Origin: Gemmatimonadota bacterium
Lineage (GTDB): Bacteria > Gemmatimonadota > Gemmatimonadetes > Gemmatimonadales > GWC2-71-9
DNA: 64,000 nt
Assembly: GCA_025357945.1 (NCBI GenBank)
Contig: JANYLJ010000054.1
Coordinates: 1 to 64,000 of the forward strand
Reading direction: 5' to 3'
Numbering within the stretch: the stretch's first letter is position 1; each line of letters begins with the position of its first letter. The position numbers were made by a program, and so were the translations under genes. Under the pieces are notes generated by a model. That model had not been told where the DNA came from. It worked only from the letters and a program-made list of their open reading frames with translations, and searched no databases. Positions 13,042 to 19,439 of this stretch are shown piece by piece.

Positions 13042-14034
13042 TCAGGTTTCAGCGGTGGACTTCTTGGCGTCTCCCATAAGCAGCAGCGCCATCAGCCCGA
13101 TCGCCATCCACGCCAACTCGCGCACCCGGCTCAGCAACGCCGCCGACGTCCCCATCTTCGGGTCGAGGCCGAGCCAGGCGAACACCAGGTACGCGCCCCC
13201 TTCCTTCGAACCCATCTCGAACGGCATGAAGAAGAGCAGGTTCGTGATGAGGGACGACATATTCGCCACCACGTACGCTCGCGGGAAATCGAGGCCGAGG
13301 CCGAGGCCGTAGAAGATGATCGTGTACTCGAACGTGCACAGGATGCGGCCAGCCACCTCGGTCGCCAGTGCCCACTTGAACTGGCCTGGCGCCGCATGGA
13401 TCGCCGTGAGCTCGCGATCGAGTTCCTGCAGACGCCCGCGATTCTGCTCGAGACGCGTCGCCAGCCGGCGTAACGGCCCCAGCCTCCCGAGTAGCGCCAC
13501 GCCTCGCTCAAAAATGCCGTCACGATGCTGCGACAGCAGAAAGAAGGCCGCCCCGGTGAAGGCAAGCGTCGCCGCGCCGAGCATCGCGAAGATCGCCGGC
13601 GTGTGCGGGAGCAGGATCGCGGCCGGGATCACCGCCGTGAGAAAAACGATGATATGCGATGTGGCGTGCAGGAAGCGGAAGCCGACCACTGAGCCGACTG
13701 CGCACCGGGTGCCGAGCAATGGGGTCGCCCCGGCCACCTTGAGCGGTTCGCCGCCCAGCGAGAACACCGGAGTGGCGTAGTTCATCGCGAACGAGCTGAT
13801 GGAGAGGAGGTAGGCCCGCCAGAAGGTAAATTCGGGCGGTCGATTCGGAATCAGGAGCTGCCAGGCTCGGGCGTTGCAGGCGTAGACCAATCCCCACAGC
13901 GCAATCAACGGACCGACCACCCAGGCGGAGTCGCGGAGACTGTGCCAGAGCAGCTCCGGCCCGCTGTGGATGATGACGACCGCCAGCACGACGGCACCGA
14001 GAACAAACGCGCCGATGCGGACGAACTTGTTCAT
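13042..14034 (-). CDS. UPF0104 / lysylphosphatidylglycerol synthase TM-like membrane protein
   Basis: A 330-residue polytopic protein with about eight hydrophobic segments, starting NKFVRIGAFVLGAVVLAVVII. It belongs to the YbhN/LPG_synthase_TM superfamily, as judged from the N-terminal helices, NYATPVFSLGGEPLKV and the late LLFFMPFEMGSKEGGAY segment. These proteins are flippase-like lipid or lipid-linked substrate translocators; the aminoacyl-transferase domain of MprF is absent. Its ATG overlaps the stop of the Gfo/Idh gene (ATGA), making it the last gene of a seven-gene operon. The likely role is moving that pathway's lipid or polyol product across the inner membrane, which is inference. 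It converges with the merR gene with only six bases between stops. Confidence 0.88.
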   Translation of the reverse strand: MNKFVRIGAFVLGAVVLAVVIIHSGPELLWHSLRDSAWVVGPLIALWGLVYACNARAWQLLIPNRPPEFTFWRAYLLSISSFAMNYATPVFSLGGEPLKVAGATPLLGTRCAVGSVVGFRFLHATSHIIVFLTAVIPAAILLPHTPAIFAMLGAATLAFTGAAFFLLSQHRDGIFERGVALLGRLGPLRRLATRLEQNRGRLQELDRELTAIHAAPGQFKWALATEVAGRILCTFEYTIIFYGLGLGLDFPRAYVVANMSSLITNLLFFMPFEMGSKEGGAYLVFAWLGLDPKMGTSAALLSRVRELAWMAIGLMALLLMGDAKKSTAET

Positions 14035-15038
14035 CCGAACGTGACCCGACGCCCCTCGGCGGACGATCGAGACGCGGCGTCCAGCAGCGTGGCGACCCGT
14101 TCGATCTCCATCAGGCTCGCCTCGCTCTCGCCCCGATCGATCGCGTCGGCAAAGTCGCCGAGAATCCGGCTCATCCAGCCGGCGTATTCACGCTTTTCCA
14201 ACTGGGTGCTGAAGTCGGTCGTCTCGGTACGGCCGTCGCGCCGAACGAGACGCAGCAGTCCGCCCACCCACTCTACCATCCCTTCATCGCCAATGAAGCG
14301 GATCCGATTCTCCCGCTCCTGGCCCGCCCACGTCAACGTCAGTGTGGCGGTGCGCTGCCCGTAGTCGATCAGCAGGTGCGCCGTGTCTTCCACATCGTAA
14401 CTGCTGTGGCCCAAAGAGGTAAGGTGAGCCAGCATGGCATCCGGCATCCCGGCGACGTCGAGCAGCAGGTACAACAGGTGCGTGCCATGATCGAGCAGCA
14501 CACCACCGAGGCTGTTCTCTTTGCGCCCCCGCCAGGGCACACCGCCAGCGATCGCGCCGCGATCCGCCTCGGCGCGGTAGACGTGAAACTCCGCCAGGTG
14601 CCAGCGTCCGATGGCGCCAGCATCAAGCAACCCGCGCAGCGCAATCCAGGCCGGGTTCTGGCGGTACTGATGACAGGGGAAGAGGACGCGGTTCGCGGCC
14701 CGCGCGGCAGCAGCGAGTTCCCGCGCTTCGGGTGCATTCACGGCGACCGGTTTCTCGCAGAACACGTGCAGCCCGCGCGCGAGCGCATCGAGCACCAGAG
14801 CCCGGTGCGTGGCGGTTGGCGTGCAGATATCCACGAAGTCGATCGGACCAGTCGCCGCCGCCGCACTCAGTGACGCGTAGACCGGAAGACCACCGAGCTC
14901 GGGTGCCGGTTGGCGCGAATCCACCGCGCCAACGACCCGGAGCCGCGACGCGATCTGTGCGTCGTGGGTGTAGGCGGGGACGTGTGCCAGTCGCGCGACG
15001 CCACCGGCGCCGACGATTACTCCCTGCCGCAGCGTCAC
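14031..15038 (-). CDS. Gfo/Idh/MocA family oxidoreductase
   Basis: About 335 residues. The N-terminal Rossmann fold (VIVGAGGVARLAHVPAY), the EKPVAVN motif that positions the nicotinamide and catalytic Lys, and a C-terminal alpha/beta dimerisation domain (GGVLLDHGTHLLYLLLDV) identify the family of sugar, inositol and scyllo-inosose dehydrogenases. The true start is GTG 15038, overlapping the TAG stop of the CDP-alcohol transferase by one base. The track's longer ORF only adds antisense sequence. The substrate is likely a polyol or sugar derivative used by this operon; myo-inositol dehydrogenase-like chemistry is possible but not shown. Confidence 0.9.
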   Translation of the reverse strand: MTLRQGVIVGAGGVARLAHVPAYTHDAQIASRLRVVGAVDSRQPAPELGGLPVYASLSAAAATGPIDFVDICTPTATHRALVLDALARGLHVFCEKPVAVNAPEARELAAAARAANRVLFPCHQYRQNPAWIALRGLLDAGAIGRWHLAEFHVYRAEADRGAIAGGVPWRGRKENSLGGVLLDHGTHLLYLLLDVAGMPDAMLAHLTSLGHSSYDVEDTAHLLIDYGQRTATLTLTWAGQERENRIRFIGDEGMVEWVGGLLRLVRRDGRTETTDFSTQLEKREYAGWMSRILGDFADAIDRGESEASLMEIERVATLLDAASRSSAEGRRVTFG

Positions 15039-15928
15039 TATGCCGCCTGGGCCAGCCGTTGCGCATCCGGGTGGAGGACCATCGCGGCGTGTCGTTCGTG
15101 GACGACGAGGATCGCGACGAGCACGCCGGACATTGGCACCAGCGTCACCCAGAGGAAGGCCGCAGGATGGCCGGGAACGACCGTCACCGCCAGCAGCAGG
15201 AACCGGATGTTCTGGCCGATCCAGGCGCATTGACGAACGACCGGCCGCTGCAGTTCAGCCCACCGGTCGGCCAAATCGGGGACGCGCAGGCCCGAGCGCA
15301 GGCGACGCACCAGCTCGAGCGATCGCGGTACCATCCTACCGGTGCGCTCCAGGTAGTTGTGATAGAAGCGGAGCTGCGCCGCCGCGACCGCGGTGTGCGC
15401 CGGGATGGCCGCCATGTCGTCGGCCAGGTTCAACTCGCCGCGGCCGCCCTCGGCAAGGTAGAGGTACAACTGCCGGATGTAGTCGACGGCGCCGCTCTGG
15501 CGGGCGTGGGCGAGTCCGGCCGCCACGCCCAGCGGTACGACCAGCCACCACGCCGCACCGGCGACGATCAGCCGGGCAATGAGGTGGCAGTACATGTTCG
15601 TGAAGCGCGCTCCGTCGGAGATGCCGTCAAGGATCTTTCCGAATCGGGTCGCGGTGCCGCGCATGCGGGCGAGCTGGCCATCGGCGCTGTCGAAGATATC
15701 GGATACGACAAACAGCGCGACACCGAGCGCGTTGAGCGCGACGCTGTTGTAGAAAAGCAGATGCCCAGCGGCCAGGCCAACGAGCAACGCCACCAGCGTC
15801 ACCTGGTCGGGGGAAACCGCCGTCGGCAGGCACGCCCGCGCGATCCGCAACCCGATTGGCCGGAAGAAGACTGTGTCAGTCCACTCCTCGATGGCCGGAC
15901 CCTTATCGAACGAGGCGTTCACTGGCAT
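15038..15928 (-). CDS. CDP-alcohol phosphatidyltransferase family protein
   Basis: About 296 residues with multiple membrane helices. It contains the complete CDP-alcohol phosphotransferase signature: DG(x2)AR(x8)G(x3)D(x3)D, read here as DGQLARMRGTATRFGKILDGISD. These aspartates bind the metal and CDP-alcohol. The start is ATG 15928, with AAGGAG nine bases upstream. It overlaps the end of the aminotransferase gene by 26 bases. The enzyme should join a CDP-activated alcohol to a hydroxyl acceptor, either a lipid or a small polyol. With a nucleotidyltransferase, ATP-grasp enzyme and oxidoreductase in the same operon, the product may be an unusual head group or di-polyol phosphate (inference). 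Confidence 0.92.
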   Translation of the reverse strand: MPVNASFDKGPAIEEWTDTVFFRPIGLRIARACLPTAVSPDQVTLVALLVGLAAGHLLFYNSVALNALGVALFVVSDIFDSADGQLARMRGTATRFGKILDGISDGARFTNMYCHLIARLIVAGAAWWLVVPLGVAAGLAHARQSGAVDYIRQLYLYLAEGGRGELNLADDMAAIPAHTAVAAAQLRFYHNYLERTGRMVPRSLELVRRLRSGLRVPDLADRWAELQRPVVRQCAWIGQNIRFLLLAVTVVPGHPAAFLWVTLVPMSGVLVAILVVHERHAAMVLHPDAQRLAQAA

Positions 15929-17243
15929 CGCGGAGGACTCCTTCCATGATGGCGAGCGCCTCGAGCGCATCGCTCTCTTCAATGACGAGCGGCGGATTGA
16001 TGCGGACTTCCGGACTGTACAGCATCGAGAGCACACCGCGGGCGAGCAGCGCGTCGAAGATCTCCCGGGTGATCGTGCGGTCGAGCAGCTTGCCGGTCGC
16101 CGGATGCACCAGGTCCATGCCGATCATCAGCCCGCGTCCGCGCACGTCCCGCACGATCGGGATGTCACCTTCCCACGCCCGCATCACTGCGAGCATCTTC
16201 TCGCCGATGCGGTGGGCGCGGGACGGCAGGTCTTCCTCGAGCGTGATACTGATCGCGGCGAGGGCGGCCGCGGCCGCCAGCGGATTGCCACCGTAGCTCG
16301 ACGAGCTGCCGCTCGGATTGGCCCACGGCATCGAGAACGCGACCTTCTCGGTGGCAATGACACCGCTCATCGGGAAGCCGCCGCCGAACGCTTTTCCCAC
16401 GGTCATGATGTCGGGCACGATGCCATCGTGCTCGACGCCGAACAGCTTGCCGGTCCGCCCAAAGCCGGTGATCATCTCGTCGGCGATCAGCACGGCGCCG
16501 AGTTCGTCGGCGAGCTTGCGCAGTTCGCGGAGGAACCCCGGGGCCGGCACAATGTTGCCGGCGGTGCCCTGGATCGGCTCGACGATGATCGCGGCGACGT
16601 TGTTGGTGGTTTCCAACTGGATCTTGCGCCGCAGGAAGTGGATCGCGCGCTGGAGGCATTCCTGCGGCGACGCCGAGTTGAACTCATCGCGGGACGGGCT
16701 GGCATACGGCGAGAGATAGCAACCGGGCATCAGCGGCCCGAGGTCGTGCTTGAACGGGCCACCGAGCAACGGAAGCACACCACCGGTCTTGCCGTGATAG
16801 CCGCCCCAGAACGCGATCACCTCGGTCTTCTTGGTGTGCGACTTGGCCAGCCGGAGTGCGGCTTCCACGGCCTCGGCGCCGCTGGAGTAGAACTGGGTCC
16901 GGTTGCAGTCGCCGGGCGTGATGCTGGCAATCAACTTCACCAGTTCCGCGCGGTGCGCGGTGGCGAAGCTGCCCACATGCAACCGGGCCACCTGCTTTTG
17001 CAGCGCGGCGACATACTTCGGGTGACCATAGCCGAGACTTGCGACGCAAATACCGGCCATCAGGTCGATGTAGCGGTTGCCATCACGGTCCCACAGGATG
17101 GCTCCTTCGCCGCGATCGAACGCCAGCCGGCTGAAGAGCGCGACGCCCTGGGTGCCGGGTGCCGCGAACTCTGATTCTGCGGCAAATGTTGCCAGGGACT
17201 GCGGACCGGGCACGGTCGCGATCGGCGCCGTCGAAGTGGTCAT
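15903..17243 (-). CDS. Class III PLP-dependent aminotransferase
   Basis: About 446 residues of a fold-type I, class III aminotransferase. Visible motifs include NRYIDLMAGICVASLGYGHP, YSSGAEAVEAALRLAKSHT, FWGGYHGKT, EPIQGTAG, IADEMITGFGRTGK and the PLP lysine in TVGKAFGGGFP. ATG 17243 is chosen; upstream sequence lacks family resemblance. It overlaps the upstream ATP-grasp gene by four bases (ATGA). Relatives transaminate omega-amino acids, ornithine, glutamate semialdehyde or amino sugars. In this operon it probably places an amino group on a polyol or keto sugar intermediate, which is inference from context. Confidence 0.92.
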   Translation of the reverse strand: MTTSTAPIATVPGPQSLATFAAESEFAAPGTQGVALFSRLAFDRGEGAILWDRDGNRYIDLMAGICVASLGYGHPKYVAALQKQVARLHVGSFATAHRAELVKLIASITPGDCNRTQFYSSGAEAVEAALRLAKSHTKKTEVIAFWGGYHGKTGGVLPLLGGPFKHDLGPLMPGCYLSPYASPSRDEFNSASPQECLQRAIHFLRRKIQLETTNNVAAIIVEPIQGTAGNIVPAPGFLRELRKLADELGAVLIADEMITGFGRTGKLFGVEHDGIVPDIMTVGKAFGGGFPMSGVIATEKVAFSMPWANPSGSSSSYGGNPLAAAAALAAISITLEEDLPSRAHRIGEKMLAVMRAWEGDIPIVRDVRGRGLMIGMDLVHPATGKLLDRTITREIFDALLARGVLSMLYSPEVRINPPLVIEESDALEALAIMEGVLRDASERLVR

Positions 17244-18070
17244 CGAATGCTCCGTTGCATGGCGGAAGCCTCGGCGAGTTGTGCGATCGCGGCGGCGGCC
17301 TCCTGGCGCACCGGCGCGAAACTCGGCCAATCGTTGAGATCGACCAGCGTCGGGTGAGTCGGTGAGGGCACGACGGCGTCGCCGCCGAACACGTTCAAGC
17401 CGACCACCCGCGCCGCCGCAAAGGCGAGGCGGCGCAGGACGTTCAGATCCACCGTGTCGCTGTCCACCGGACGCCCATCCTCGCGAAAGGCGTGGAACAG
17501 CGAGCCATCACCCACGCCATAGAATTTGAGTACCGGACCGGGCACGTGCGCCTGCACCGCCACTTGCTTCACGCCACGGGCTCCGAAGCCCGCCAGAACC
17601 GACGCCAGTTCGTCGCGGCTGGTACGGACCACGTCGGTCGCTTGTTGCGCATGCACGTCGCCACGCTTGACCCAGAACTCGCCATCCGGCAACTCGGTTT
17701 CGAACATCGGCGCGTCGGTCGTCGGCAGCATCACGGTCAGCGGGAAGGGAAGGCCCGACGCGTCGAGCGTCCGCACCAACCGGTGACGGTGACATCCGAG
17801 GACAGTCGACGGCCGGTTGAGGATGCATGCGCCGCGTTCCTCGAGGTCGAGGAGATGCATCGAGGCGGCGCTCCCCTGGCACATGTTGAGGTAGAGATCC
17901 GCATCGGGAATGATGCCGGCTTCGACGTCGCGCTCGCCCAGCCGCTCGACCGCCCAGCCATTCTCGGCCAGTCGCGCCGTCGTCGCGTCCATGATCGCGG
18001 CGTCATTGTTCCGATGCCGGCCCGGTGAATACGTCGCGCTTCGGTAAATCGCCAACACCCGCATGGTCAT
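17240..18070 (-). CDS. ATP-grasp-like protein, resembling inositol phosphate kinases
   Basis: A 276-residue protein that looks like an ATP-grasp enzyme. The central lobe has FWVKRGDVHAQ (nucleotide-binding lysine), then VQAHVPGPVLKFYGVGDG, and the C-terminal metal-binding strand LVDLNDWPSF. This order, particularly 'VQ.HvpGpvlKfYgVG' and 'DlNdwPsF', resembles the inositol 1,3,4-trisphosphate 5/6-kinase branch (QxFxxHxGxxxKVYVVG and DxNxFP) as well as RimK-type ligases. The start ATG 18070 overlaps the nucleotidyltransferase stop. The reaction may be phosphorylation of a polyol or an amide ligation. Sequence alone does not decide. Confidence 0.75.
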   Translation of the reverse strand: MTMRVLAIYRSATYSPGRHRNNDAAIMDATTARLAENGWAVERLGERDVEAGIIPDADLYLNMCQGSAASMHLLDLEERGACILNRPSTVLGCHRHRLVRTLDASGLPFPLTVMLPTTDAPMFETELPDGEFWVKRGDVHAQQATDVVRTSRDELASVLAGFGARGVKQVAVQAHVPGPVLKFYGVGDGSLFHAFREDGRPVDSDTVDLNVLRRLAFAAARVVGLNVFGGDAVVPSPTHPTLVDLNDWPSFAPVRQEAAAAIAQLAEASAMQRSIR

Positions 18071-18762
18071 GCCAGTTCTCTCCCGATCAGAGCGAGCGCG
18101 GCGTCCAGATCCGCGTTGGTATCGACGTCCACGATCTTGCGCACTTCGATCGCGCGGACACGATGCTTCCCTGCAATCAAACCGGCGAGAAATCCCCGCA
18201 GTCGTAATACGCCGGAGTCCACCGCACTGGATGCGGCCACCCGCGCAGCAGGCCCGAACCAGTAGACCCCGCCGGTCACCAGCGCCCGGGTCCCCCGCTG
18301 GCCGAATGCCCGCACGGTGCCATCGCGCGACACATCAGCCCAGAGCGGCGATTCATCCGCGACGAATGGCGTCACGGCGACGACCGCGTCTGCGTTACCC
18401 AACGCGACCAGCGCATCGCGATGCGCCGCGTCCCAATCCGCCGCCGGCATCACCGTGTCGACCAGCGTACAGAGGACGTCGCCGGTACCGATGGCCCGCA
18501 ACCCCGCAACCAGCGTGTGCAGGGACGTTGGCGTGCGAACCGCCACCACCTGCACCCGCGAGTCCGCAATCGCCGCGGCGACGGCGACGGCGAGATCTTC
18601 GCGCACCGCACACGTCACCGTCTCGCAGCCGACCCGGCGACATGCCGCAACCATCCGTGCCACCTGCGCCCGTCCGCCAATCGGCACCAGCGCCTTGGGC
18701 ACCGTCACACCGGTCGCCGCCAGGCGCGAACCTTCCCCGCCCGCCAGGATCAGCCCGTGCAT
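18067..18762 (-). CDS. Nucleotidyltransferase (NDP-sugar / NDP-polyol pyrophosphorylase-like)
   Basis: A 231-residue GT-A fold nucleotidyltransferase. The first strand and signature loop LILAGGEGSRLA...PKALVPIGG bind the NTP. Later, LCTLVDTVMP is a divergent metal site, GGVYWF a base/sugar loop, and IVDVDTNADL a C-terminal acidic strand. Enzymes of this class form CDP-, UDP- or GDP-activated sugars or polyols; because a CDP-alcohol transferase follows, CTP is the most plausible substrate (inference). It overlaps the HAD gene by one base (TGATG) and the ATP-grasp gene by four. Confidence 0.88.
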   Translation of the reverse strand: MHGLILAGGEGSRLAATGVTVPKALVPIGGRAQVARMVAACRRVGCETVTCAVREDLAVAVAAAIADSRVQVVAVRTPTSLHTLVAGLRAIGTGDVLCTLVDTVMPAADWDAAHRDALVALGNADAVVAVTPFVADESPLWADVSRDGTVRAFGQRGTRALVTGGVYWFGPAARVAASSAVDSGVLRLRGFLAGLIAGKHRVRAIEVRKIVDVDTNADLDAALALIGRELA

Positions 18763-19439
18763 CAGGCCGCCAGGACCATCGGGACCTGGTCGAAGCGCGC
18801 CACCCGCGCTGTCGGCGCAATCCCTACCGGCGATCGCCCGACCGGAGCCACCCAGCAGGTTCGCATGCCGAGCGTTGCCGCAGCGGCAATGTCGTTCGAC
18901 GGACTATCGCCGATCATCCAGCAACTCGCCACGTCGCGGTCGAGCGCGGCCAGCGTGACGTCAAAGATCCGGCGATCCGGCTTTCGGGCGCCCACCACTT
19001 CGGAGTCCGATACCACGTCAAACAGGTCGCCAAGTTCCAGTTCGTCGAGACACGGCTGCAGGTTCCCCTGATAGTTCGACACCACCGCGAGCCCGAAGTC
19101 GTCGGCCAGCTCCGCCAGAATCAGGCGGTTCCGTCCCGCGACCGCGACCGCGTCGGCGACGAACCGGGAGCGGACGGCGGCAGCGTCCAGACACCCGCCG
19201 TCGGGCAGTAACGCCGCAAGTAGATCCGCCTGGGCCGCGACGGTCGCGGAGTAGTCGAAACGCGCCACGCCAGGGAGCCGTGCCAGCTGTTCATCCGACT
19301 CGGCGAACGCCGTCCGGAACCGATGCCGGTCCGCTACGCCACCGGCGCGGACGTACAACCGGAAAAACCGGTCGACCCAGGGCTCGCCATCCGCGTCGAG
19401 CGTCCCGCCAAAGTCGATCAGCAGCGCGTTCGGGCCCAC
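18762..19439 (-). CDS. HAD-superfamily phosphatase
   Basis: A 225-residue HAD hydrolase. Motif I is DFGGTLD (DxGGTxD form), motif II VVSNYQG, motif III lysine in GARKPD, motif IV GDSPSND. A helical cap lies between motifs I and II. It should dephosphorylate a small metabolite. As the first gene of the seven-gene overlapping operon it probably acts on a phosphorylated intermediate of that route. The start is GTG 19439; surE begins 47 bases away in the opposite direction, so this short gap contains both promoters. No clear promoter was seen. Confidence 0.88.
   Translation of the reverse strand: MGPNALLIDFGGTLDADGEPWVDRFFRLYVRAGGVADRHRFRTAFAESDEQLARLPGVARFDYSATVAAQADLLAALLPDGGCLDAAAVRSRFVADAVAVAGRNRLILAELADDFGLAVVSNYQGNLQPCLDELELGDLFDVVSDSEVVGARKPDRRIFDVTLAALDRDVASCWMIGDSPSNDIAAAATLGMRTCWVAPVGRSPVGIAPTARVARFDQVPMVLAA

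Follow-up and report, generated by a model that had tools for sequence, protein, structure and literature searches.

The window analysed here, a stretch of 64,000 nucleotides from a contig of a Gemmatimonadota bacterium, holds at 17240-18070 an open reading frame that a sequence-only reading had ascribed to an ATP-grasp protein resembling eukaryotic inositol phosphate kinases, lying in an operon of polyol activation genes, with RimK-type peptide ligases as the competing possibility. This raises the question of what such a protein would do among the genes that surround it, and to which branch of the ATP-grasp enzymes it is closest.

The operon of the window

The region encodes the following features:

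13042..14034, minus strand: flippase-like membrane protein (LPG_synthase_TM/HpnL type; PF03706, E 1e-17)
14031..15038, minus strand: Gfo/Idh/MocA oxidoreductase, proposed cyclitol dehydrogenase (PF01408, E 1e-19; PF22725, E 3e-20)
15038..15928, minus strand: CDP-alcohol phosphatidyltransferase (PF01066, E 2e-12; motif DSADGQLAR(x8)GKILDGISD present)
15903..17243, minus strand: class-III aminotransferase, with a keto-cyclitol as proposed substrate (PF00202, E 1e-100)
17240..18070, minus strand: ATP-grasp protein of 276 aa, proposed cyclitol or cyclitol-phosphate kinase (ORF, family alignments, AlphaFold, Foldseek)
17318..17347, minus strand: motif LVDLNDWPSF, residues 242-251, with D244 and N246 as predicted metal ligands (ORF and alignments A1-A3)
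17504..17557, minus strand: motif VQAHVPGPVLKFYGVGDG, residues 172-189, with the invariant Q173 region, G178, K182, F183 and Y184 (ORF and alignment)
18067..18762, minus strand: MobA-like nucleotidyltransferase, proposed CTP:cyclitol-phosphate cytidylyltransferase (PF12804, E 4e-15; motif GGEGSRL...PKALVPIGG)
18762..19439, minus strand: HAD-family phosphatase, at the start of the operon (PF00702, E 6e-15)

Positions 13042-19439 form a single tight operon of seven genes, all on the minus strand, in which the HAD gene is followed by those for the nucleotidyltransferase, the ATP-grasp protein, the class-III aminotransferase, the CDP-alcohol phosphotransferase, the Gfo/Idh/MocA oxidoreductase and the flippase-like protein. 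The ATP-grasp ORF starts with ATG, carries in its translation both motifs quoted in the sequence-only reading and shares a 4-base ATGA overlap with the gene on each side, the aminotransferase ATG at 17243 overlapping its stop codon. The top NCBIfam model for the CDP-alcohol phosphatidyltransferase was archaetidylinositol phosphate synthase (53.9 bits, cut-off 180), and the oxidoreductase reached 60 bits with the inositol 2-dehydrogenase model, under its cut-off of 355. The operon of the window has no linked gene for myo-inositol-phosphate synthase (MIPS); in this genome it is found on another contig (C18, L112:7372-9333), where it directly follows another small, second CDP-alcohol phosphotransferase, the two probably belonging to an ordinary phosphatidylinositol-phosphate pathway. 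Inositol phosphate is thus available, and ordinary phosphatidylinositol is probably made separately.

Fold, family and active-site residues

The AlphaFold model of the ORF, built with 36 family sequences, had a pLDDT of 95.1 and a pTM of 0.91, and Foldseek aligned it with probability 1.00 to many ATP-grasp enzymes. Its PDB matches were D-Ala-D-Ala ligases, LysX/ArgX, RimK, PsnB and DcsG (E 3e-13 to 3e-11), and no ITPK was among the top 50 Foldseek PDB matches listed. ATP-grasp proteins also ranked first when the family profile was compared with the PDB, and besides the fold the protein has the lysine (K135) and the D231..D244-x-N246 ATP/Mg site of the superfamily. Judged from the model and its Foldseek matches, the product of 17240-18070 is, beyond reasonable doubt, an ATP-grasp enzyme, in agreement with what had been read from the sequence.

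On its own, the window protein had no Pfam match at E 10 and no NCBIfam match at E 1. It nevertheless belongs to a family with at least 314 relatives among the 84,980 species genomes scanned, and the best 80 relatives are found in Gemmatimonadota, Ignavibacteria, Bacteroidota, Verrucomicrobia, Desulfobacterota, Acidobacteria and others; family matches occurred in 37 of 298 Gemmatimonadota genomes (around 30 of them strong) and a relative in 40 of 295 Bacteroidales genomes, and none in the viral contigs searched. Three overlapping alignments were made, of 30 (A1), 36 (A2) and 40 (A3) sequences. K135, K182, F183, Y184, D231, D244, N246, P249, S250 and F251 are invariant in all of them, the two motifs listed above are the best conserved parts of the family and are kept in every aligned relative, and SPxxxxxND, M(C/A)QG, WxKRGDVHA, GxxxKFYG, FGGD/YGGD and D(L/I/F)NDWPSF are kept almost throughout.

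Two particularities were seen among the Bacteroidales relatives. Many of them (L121, L123-L146; A3 columns ~222-240) have an insert of 14-17 aa, HSKFGxExINGK, after the FFxWFYP strand; it is absent from the clusters of the aminotransferase type and, as a sequence feature, could mark a different substrate. One relative (L138; G423 contig C25:52574-53419) contains two in-frame TAA codons and may be a pseudogene or reflect a sequencing error.

When ITPK and RimK were compared as possible kin, sequence comparison was divided between kinase and ligase, while the residues were not. The top match in the PDB profile search was Arabidopsis ITPK4, with E values of 9e-4, 1.2e-5 and 7.8e-7 as the diversity of the alignment grew; the ligase PsnB came second (E 4.8e-6) and an Entamoeba ITPK third, with RimK at 0.008-0.03. 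Profile-profile comparison, done with small ITPK and RimK reference sets, gave RimK scores of 73-79 (PDB set) or 61-64 (phylum set) versus 52-53 for ITPK. With TIGR00768, many relatives showed weak matches (best E 2e-11; highest score 37.1 bits among the ten members listed, cut-off 143.4) and the window protein none, and no PF08443 match was obtained in its own genome at E 0.001. Two other leads were discarded: the beta-lactamase matches in the PDB profile searches were taken as noise (E >0.08), and kinship by profile with PPIP5K, whose DxN and VKVY agree with the family, was dropped with an hhalign probability of 1% and no useful score.

With respect to the residues, 30 RimK-family proteins from the same phylum (Gemmatimonadota) served as controls. 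ExN was present in 30/30 controls versus 0/30, 0/36 and 0/40 rows of A1, A2 and A3, and N..RGG in 27/30 controls versus no row of the three alignments; D-x-R was found in 28 of the 29 controls that could be read at that position. Every row of the alignments has D-x-N and K-F-Y instead, and KRGDVHA stands where RimK typically has a glycine-rich loop. Human ITPK1 (DIN, KVF), plant ITPKs (DIN, KVY), ITPK4 (DLN, KFY) and PPIP5K2 (DVN, KVY) have this D and this K as well; the sequences taken as references for RimK of E. coli and for human ITPK1 and PPIP5K2 were each verified against a near-identical PDB entry. K182 matches the ITPK1 lysine that touches the inositol phosphate. DxN is no proof of a kinase, since CDC123-type ATP-grasp proteins carry it too, and the general Q...K shape is also seen in PsnB and RimK, with R for K.

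The ITPK1 pattern claimed earlier for the two motifs holds in part: DxN and the lysine of VKFY are as in ITPK and PPIP5K, but the exact QxFxxHxGxxxKVYVVG is not there, the distance from Q to K being 9 residues versus 11 in human ITPK1, the histidine being absent and KFYGV replacing KVFVV. The insert that follows the KVFVVG strand in ITPK is also missing from the window protein. It would be very improbable, then, that we are dealing with a true bacterial ITPK (PF05770), whether derived from the eukaryotic enzymes or ancestral to them. ITPK4 heads the PDB matches and the family shares with ITPK the ATP-grasp fold, the DxN metal site, the lysine before FY/VF and even D-x-N-x-x-P-S-F (DLNYLPSF in ITPK4), but the window protein is shorter, lacks the motif histidine and the inserts and has no PF05770 match at E 10, its relatives reaching 0.0015 at best (9 of 36 members), RimK-type proteins score better in both profile-profile and fold comparisons, and as substrate we predict inositol in free form, an inosamine or inositol monophosphate. 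From these comparisons the protein is not a demonstrable ITPK, and the family membership suggested by the sequence-only reading was not sustained. The backbone is nearest to RimK/LysX/D-Ala ligases, without any of the peptide-ligase residues tested: the RimK/LysX/MptN alpha-glutamate ligases (TIGR00768, PF08443) are closest in overall profile and fold, whereas ExN, DxR, N..RGG and the glycine-rich loop all differ and the scores are far under the cut-offs. The best match to RimK that would have spoken for a peptide ligase was thus found in part, as profile-profile and fold put RimK/LysX/DDL nearest, but the conserved ligase residues expected along with it were not.

The replacement of the RimK loop by KRGDVHA could also be taken to mean that the protein is non-catalytic, or regulatory, within its pathway. 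Given that K135, D231, D244 and N246, the ligands of ATP and metal, do not vary in any row of A1-A3, we regard this as the least probable of the explanations considered.

Gene neighbourhood and inositol lipid clusters

The analysis covered the best 80 of the 314 relatives plus 20 Bacteroidales regions, and neighbours were tallied in 84 loci of more than 11 kb; the counts are not independent events. An isolate, Desulfoferrobacter suflitae (L099), also carries the gene set. A nucleotidyltransferase was present in 83 of these loci, a HAD protein in 82 and a CDP-alcohol phosphotransferase in 79, followed by aminotransferase (59), oxidoreductase (59), flippase-like protein (57) and MIPS (38). The aminotransferase and the oxidoreductase are gained and lost as a pair, both in 59 loci, neither in 25 and one alone in none (Fisher p 6e-22, uncorrected for shared ancestry). 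The cluster therefore consists of a fixed core, made up of nucleotidyltransferase, ATP-grasp, CDP-alcohol phosphotransferase and HAD, plus a two-gene module for oxidation and amination. MIPS, identified by PF07994 (E 1e-107) and PF01658, comes after HAD in almost every locus of Ignavibacteria and Bacteroidota, and the order nucleotidyltransferase, ATP-grasp, CDP-alcohol phosphotransferase, (flippase-like), HAD, MIPS is recurrent in Bacteroidales. The earlier view of an operon for polyol or cyclitol activation is thus borne out, with the addition of a direct link to inositol synthesis in related clusters. As MIPS is present in 274 of 298 Gemmatimonadota genomes, finding it together with the gene carries no information within this phylum.

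Some loci have additional elements. In some Ignavibacteria and relatives there are two tandem ATP-grasp copies in the same cluster (L076:8001-9636; L089:7165-8819; L094:7165-8783), which perhaps correspond to two phosphorylation steps. In others (L067:5443-7964; also L072, L073 and L083), nucleotidyltransferase and ATP-grasp are separated by the genes of a lipid ABC transporter of the Mla type (MlaE, ATPase, MlaD), which points to lipid trafficking. In one Bacteroidales locus (L103:2987-6495; L080 is similar) a second pair of CDP-alcohol phosphotransferase and nucleotidyltransferase is found just upstream of the cluster, accompanied by genes for a HisC-like aminotransferase and an exporter of the LysE type.

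PI-dihydroceramide has been reported in B. vulgatus and P. veroralis, which make it although they lack the genes of B. thetaiotaomicron, and an alternative cluster was proposed, with the NTP transferase BVU_RS13095, the phosphotransferase RS13105, the HAD protein RS13115 and MIPS, whose functions are unconfirmed in that description (Heaver et al., 2022; PMC9246714). The tag RS13100, between the NTP transferase and the phosphotransferase, goes undiscussed there, and the word ATP-grasp is absent (PMC9246714). Judging from gene order and tag spacing, the ATP-grasp gene would fit this slot. Core genes and order in the B. vulgatus/Prevotella cluster are those of the family loci (NTP transferase, [gene], phosphotransferase, [flippase/LPG synthase-like], HAD, MIPS), and the trio of NTP transferase, CDP-alcohol phosphotransferase and HAD is complete in the operon of the window, which differs in adding the aminotransferase and the oxidoreductase and in having no linked MIPS. 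None of 13 Bacteroidales loci showed the fusion of CDP-alcohol phosphotransferase and HAD that is reported for P. veroralis. The literature searched yielded no later work on an ATP-grasp protein in the alternative cluster.

These clusters bear on two further explanations. The protein might be a ligase that activates a carboxylate, e.g. that of an amino acid, and attaches it to the amino-cyclitol or inositol head group, thereby decorating the lipid, as could be proposed from an overall fold and profile nearest to RimK, LysX, DDL and PsnB, the latter second in the PDB profile search and itself an enzyme that forms ester links. We consider this rather unlikely: DxN replaces ExN in every row, the acyl-phosphate motif N..RGG and the RimK glycine-rich loop are absent, and the gene is kept in clusters devoid of the aminotransferase/oxidoreductase pair. 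Minimal clusters contain no amino-acid supply gene. Furthermore, the lipid reported in B. vulgatus and P. veroralis is plain PI-dihydroceramide, with no aminoacyl group described (PMC9246714). If the Bacteroidales clusters that carry the gene are the makers of this lipid, a ligase should be expected to leave an extra group and none is described, so that a kinase is favoured.

Alternatively, a bacterial phosphoinositide kinase could phosphorylate the phosphatidyl-cyclitol once the lipid has been assembled. The constant clustering of the gene with lipid-forming enzymes, often including a flippase-like protein, would agree with this, but a soluble ATP-grasp fold takes up the whole 276 aa and leaves no membrane segment, and the Bacteroidales order places ATP-grasp between cytidylyltransferase and phosphotransferase. 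To our knowledge, no phosphorylated phosphatidyl-cyclitol lipid has been described in these bacteria, and this explanation seems improbable.

A proposed CDP-cyclitol route to membrane lipids

Membership of the ATP-grasp gene in a cyclitol-lipid pathway is well supported, and kinase chemistry is favoured for its product; that the ORF product acts as the kinase in a route leading through a CDP-cyclitol to membrane lipids has, in our estimation, an even chance. The chemistry, exact substrate, order of steps and lipid product are what we infer, as follows. MIPS would make inositol phosphate, from which the HAD protein could take the phosphate off. In lineages with the pair, the Gfo/Idh/MocA oxidoreductase would oxidise a ring hydroxyl and the class-III aminotransferase turn the ketone into an amine. 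The ATP-grasp protein would phosphorylate the cyclitol, or add a second phosphate to inositol phosphate, the nucleotidyltransferase would then form the CDP-cyclitol (CDP-inositol, or CDP-aminoinositol in the lineage of the window), and the CDP-alcohol phosphotransferase would move the cyclitol onto a lipid alcohol, with the flippase-like protein helping to move the lipid. Two variants may be envisaged. In variant (a), HAD would free inositol from inositol 3-phosphate, the optional pair would yield amino-inositol and the ATP-grasp protein would re-phosphorylate it. In variant (b), the ATP-grasp protein would put a second phosphate on inositol 3-phosphate, that position would be cytidylylated and HAD would finally remove the other phosphate from the lipid.

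The kinase is called for because the cytidylyltransferase needs a phosphorylated substrate, while oxidation and amination act on a free ring hydroxyl; where the pair is absent it is not strictly required, since MIPS gives phosphorylated inositol directly. Counting against a kinase are RimK scoring above ITPK in profile-profile comparison, the absence of ITPK from the top 50 Foldseek matches, which are DDL, LysX/ArgX, RimK, PsnB and DcsG, the weak TIGR00768 matches and the second place of PsnB, and also the missing ITPK motif and insert and the unlinked MIPS of this genome.

Two known routes are comparable. With the oxidoreductase/aminotransferase pair, variant (a) would resemble streptidine biosynthesis, in which a phosphatase, a Gfo/Idh dehydrogenase, an aminotransferase and a kinase (StrO, StrI, StsC, StrN) lead to inosamine phosphate, StrI and StsC carrying out the comparable oxidation and amination in streptomycin synthesis; the same order is proposed for the operon of the window. 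StsC and StrN are not of the same enzyme families as their counterparts in the window, and the predicted end product of the operon differs in being a lipid. The di-myo-inositol phosphate route of hyperthermophiles (IPCT/DIPPS) shares the logic of MIPS, cytidylyltransferase and CDP-alcohol phosphotransferase, with weak NF041135 matches, but as far as we know it has no ATP-grasp enzyme, whereas the window has separate genes together with ATP-grasp, HAD and flippase-like proteins.

Taken as a whole, we tentatively propose, with somewhat less confidence than for the kinase itself, that a new family of ATP-grasp kinases, which combines an ITPK-like active site with a RimK-like frame, supplies an enzyme so far overlooked in the CDP-inositol lipid route of bacteria. 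In Gemmatimonadota, Ignavibacteria, Verrucomicrobia and others, this route would be joined to an oxidation/amination module and lead to inosamine phospholipids. Inositol lipids are of importance in gut Bacteroidetes, where the route commoner in Prevotella has been proposed but is uncharacterised, and the conserved gene at the centre of its cluster, undiscussed where the cluster was described (PMC9246714), is a direct target. If the protein is a kinase, inositol phosphorylation by ATP-grasp enzymes would gain a bacterial branch. The paired oxidoreductase and aminotransferase, in turn, predict amino-inositol lipids across several environmental phyla; inosamine phospholipids, of which no report was found in the literature searched, would then constitute a lipid class new to it.
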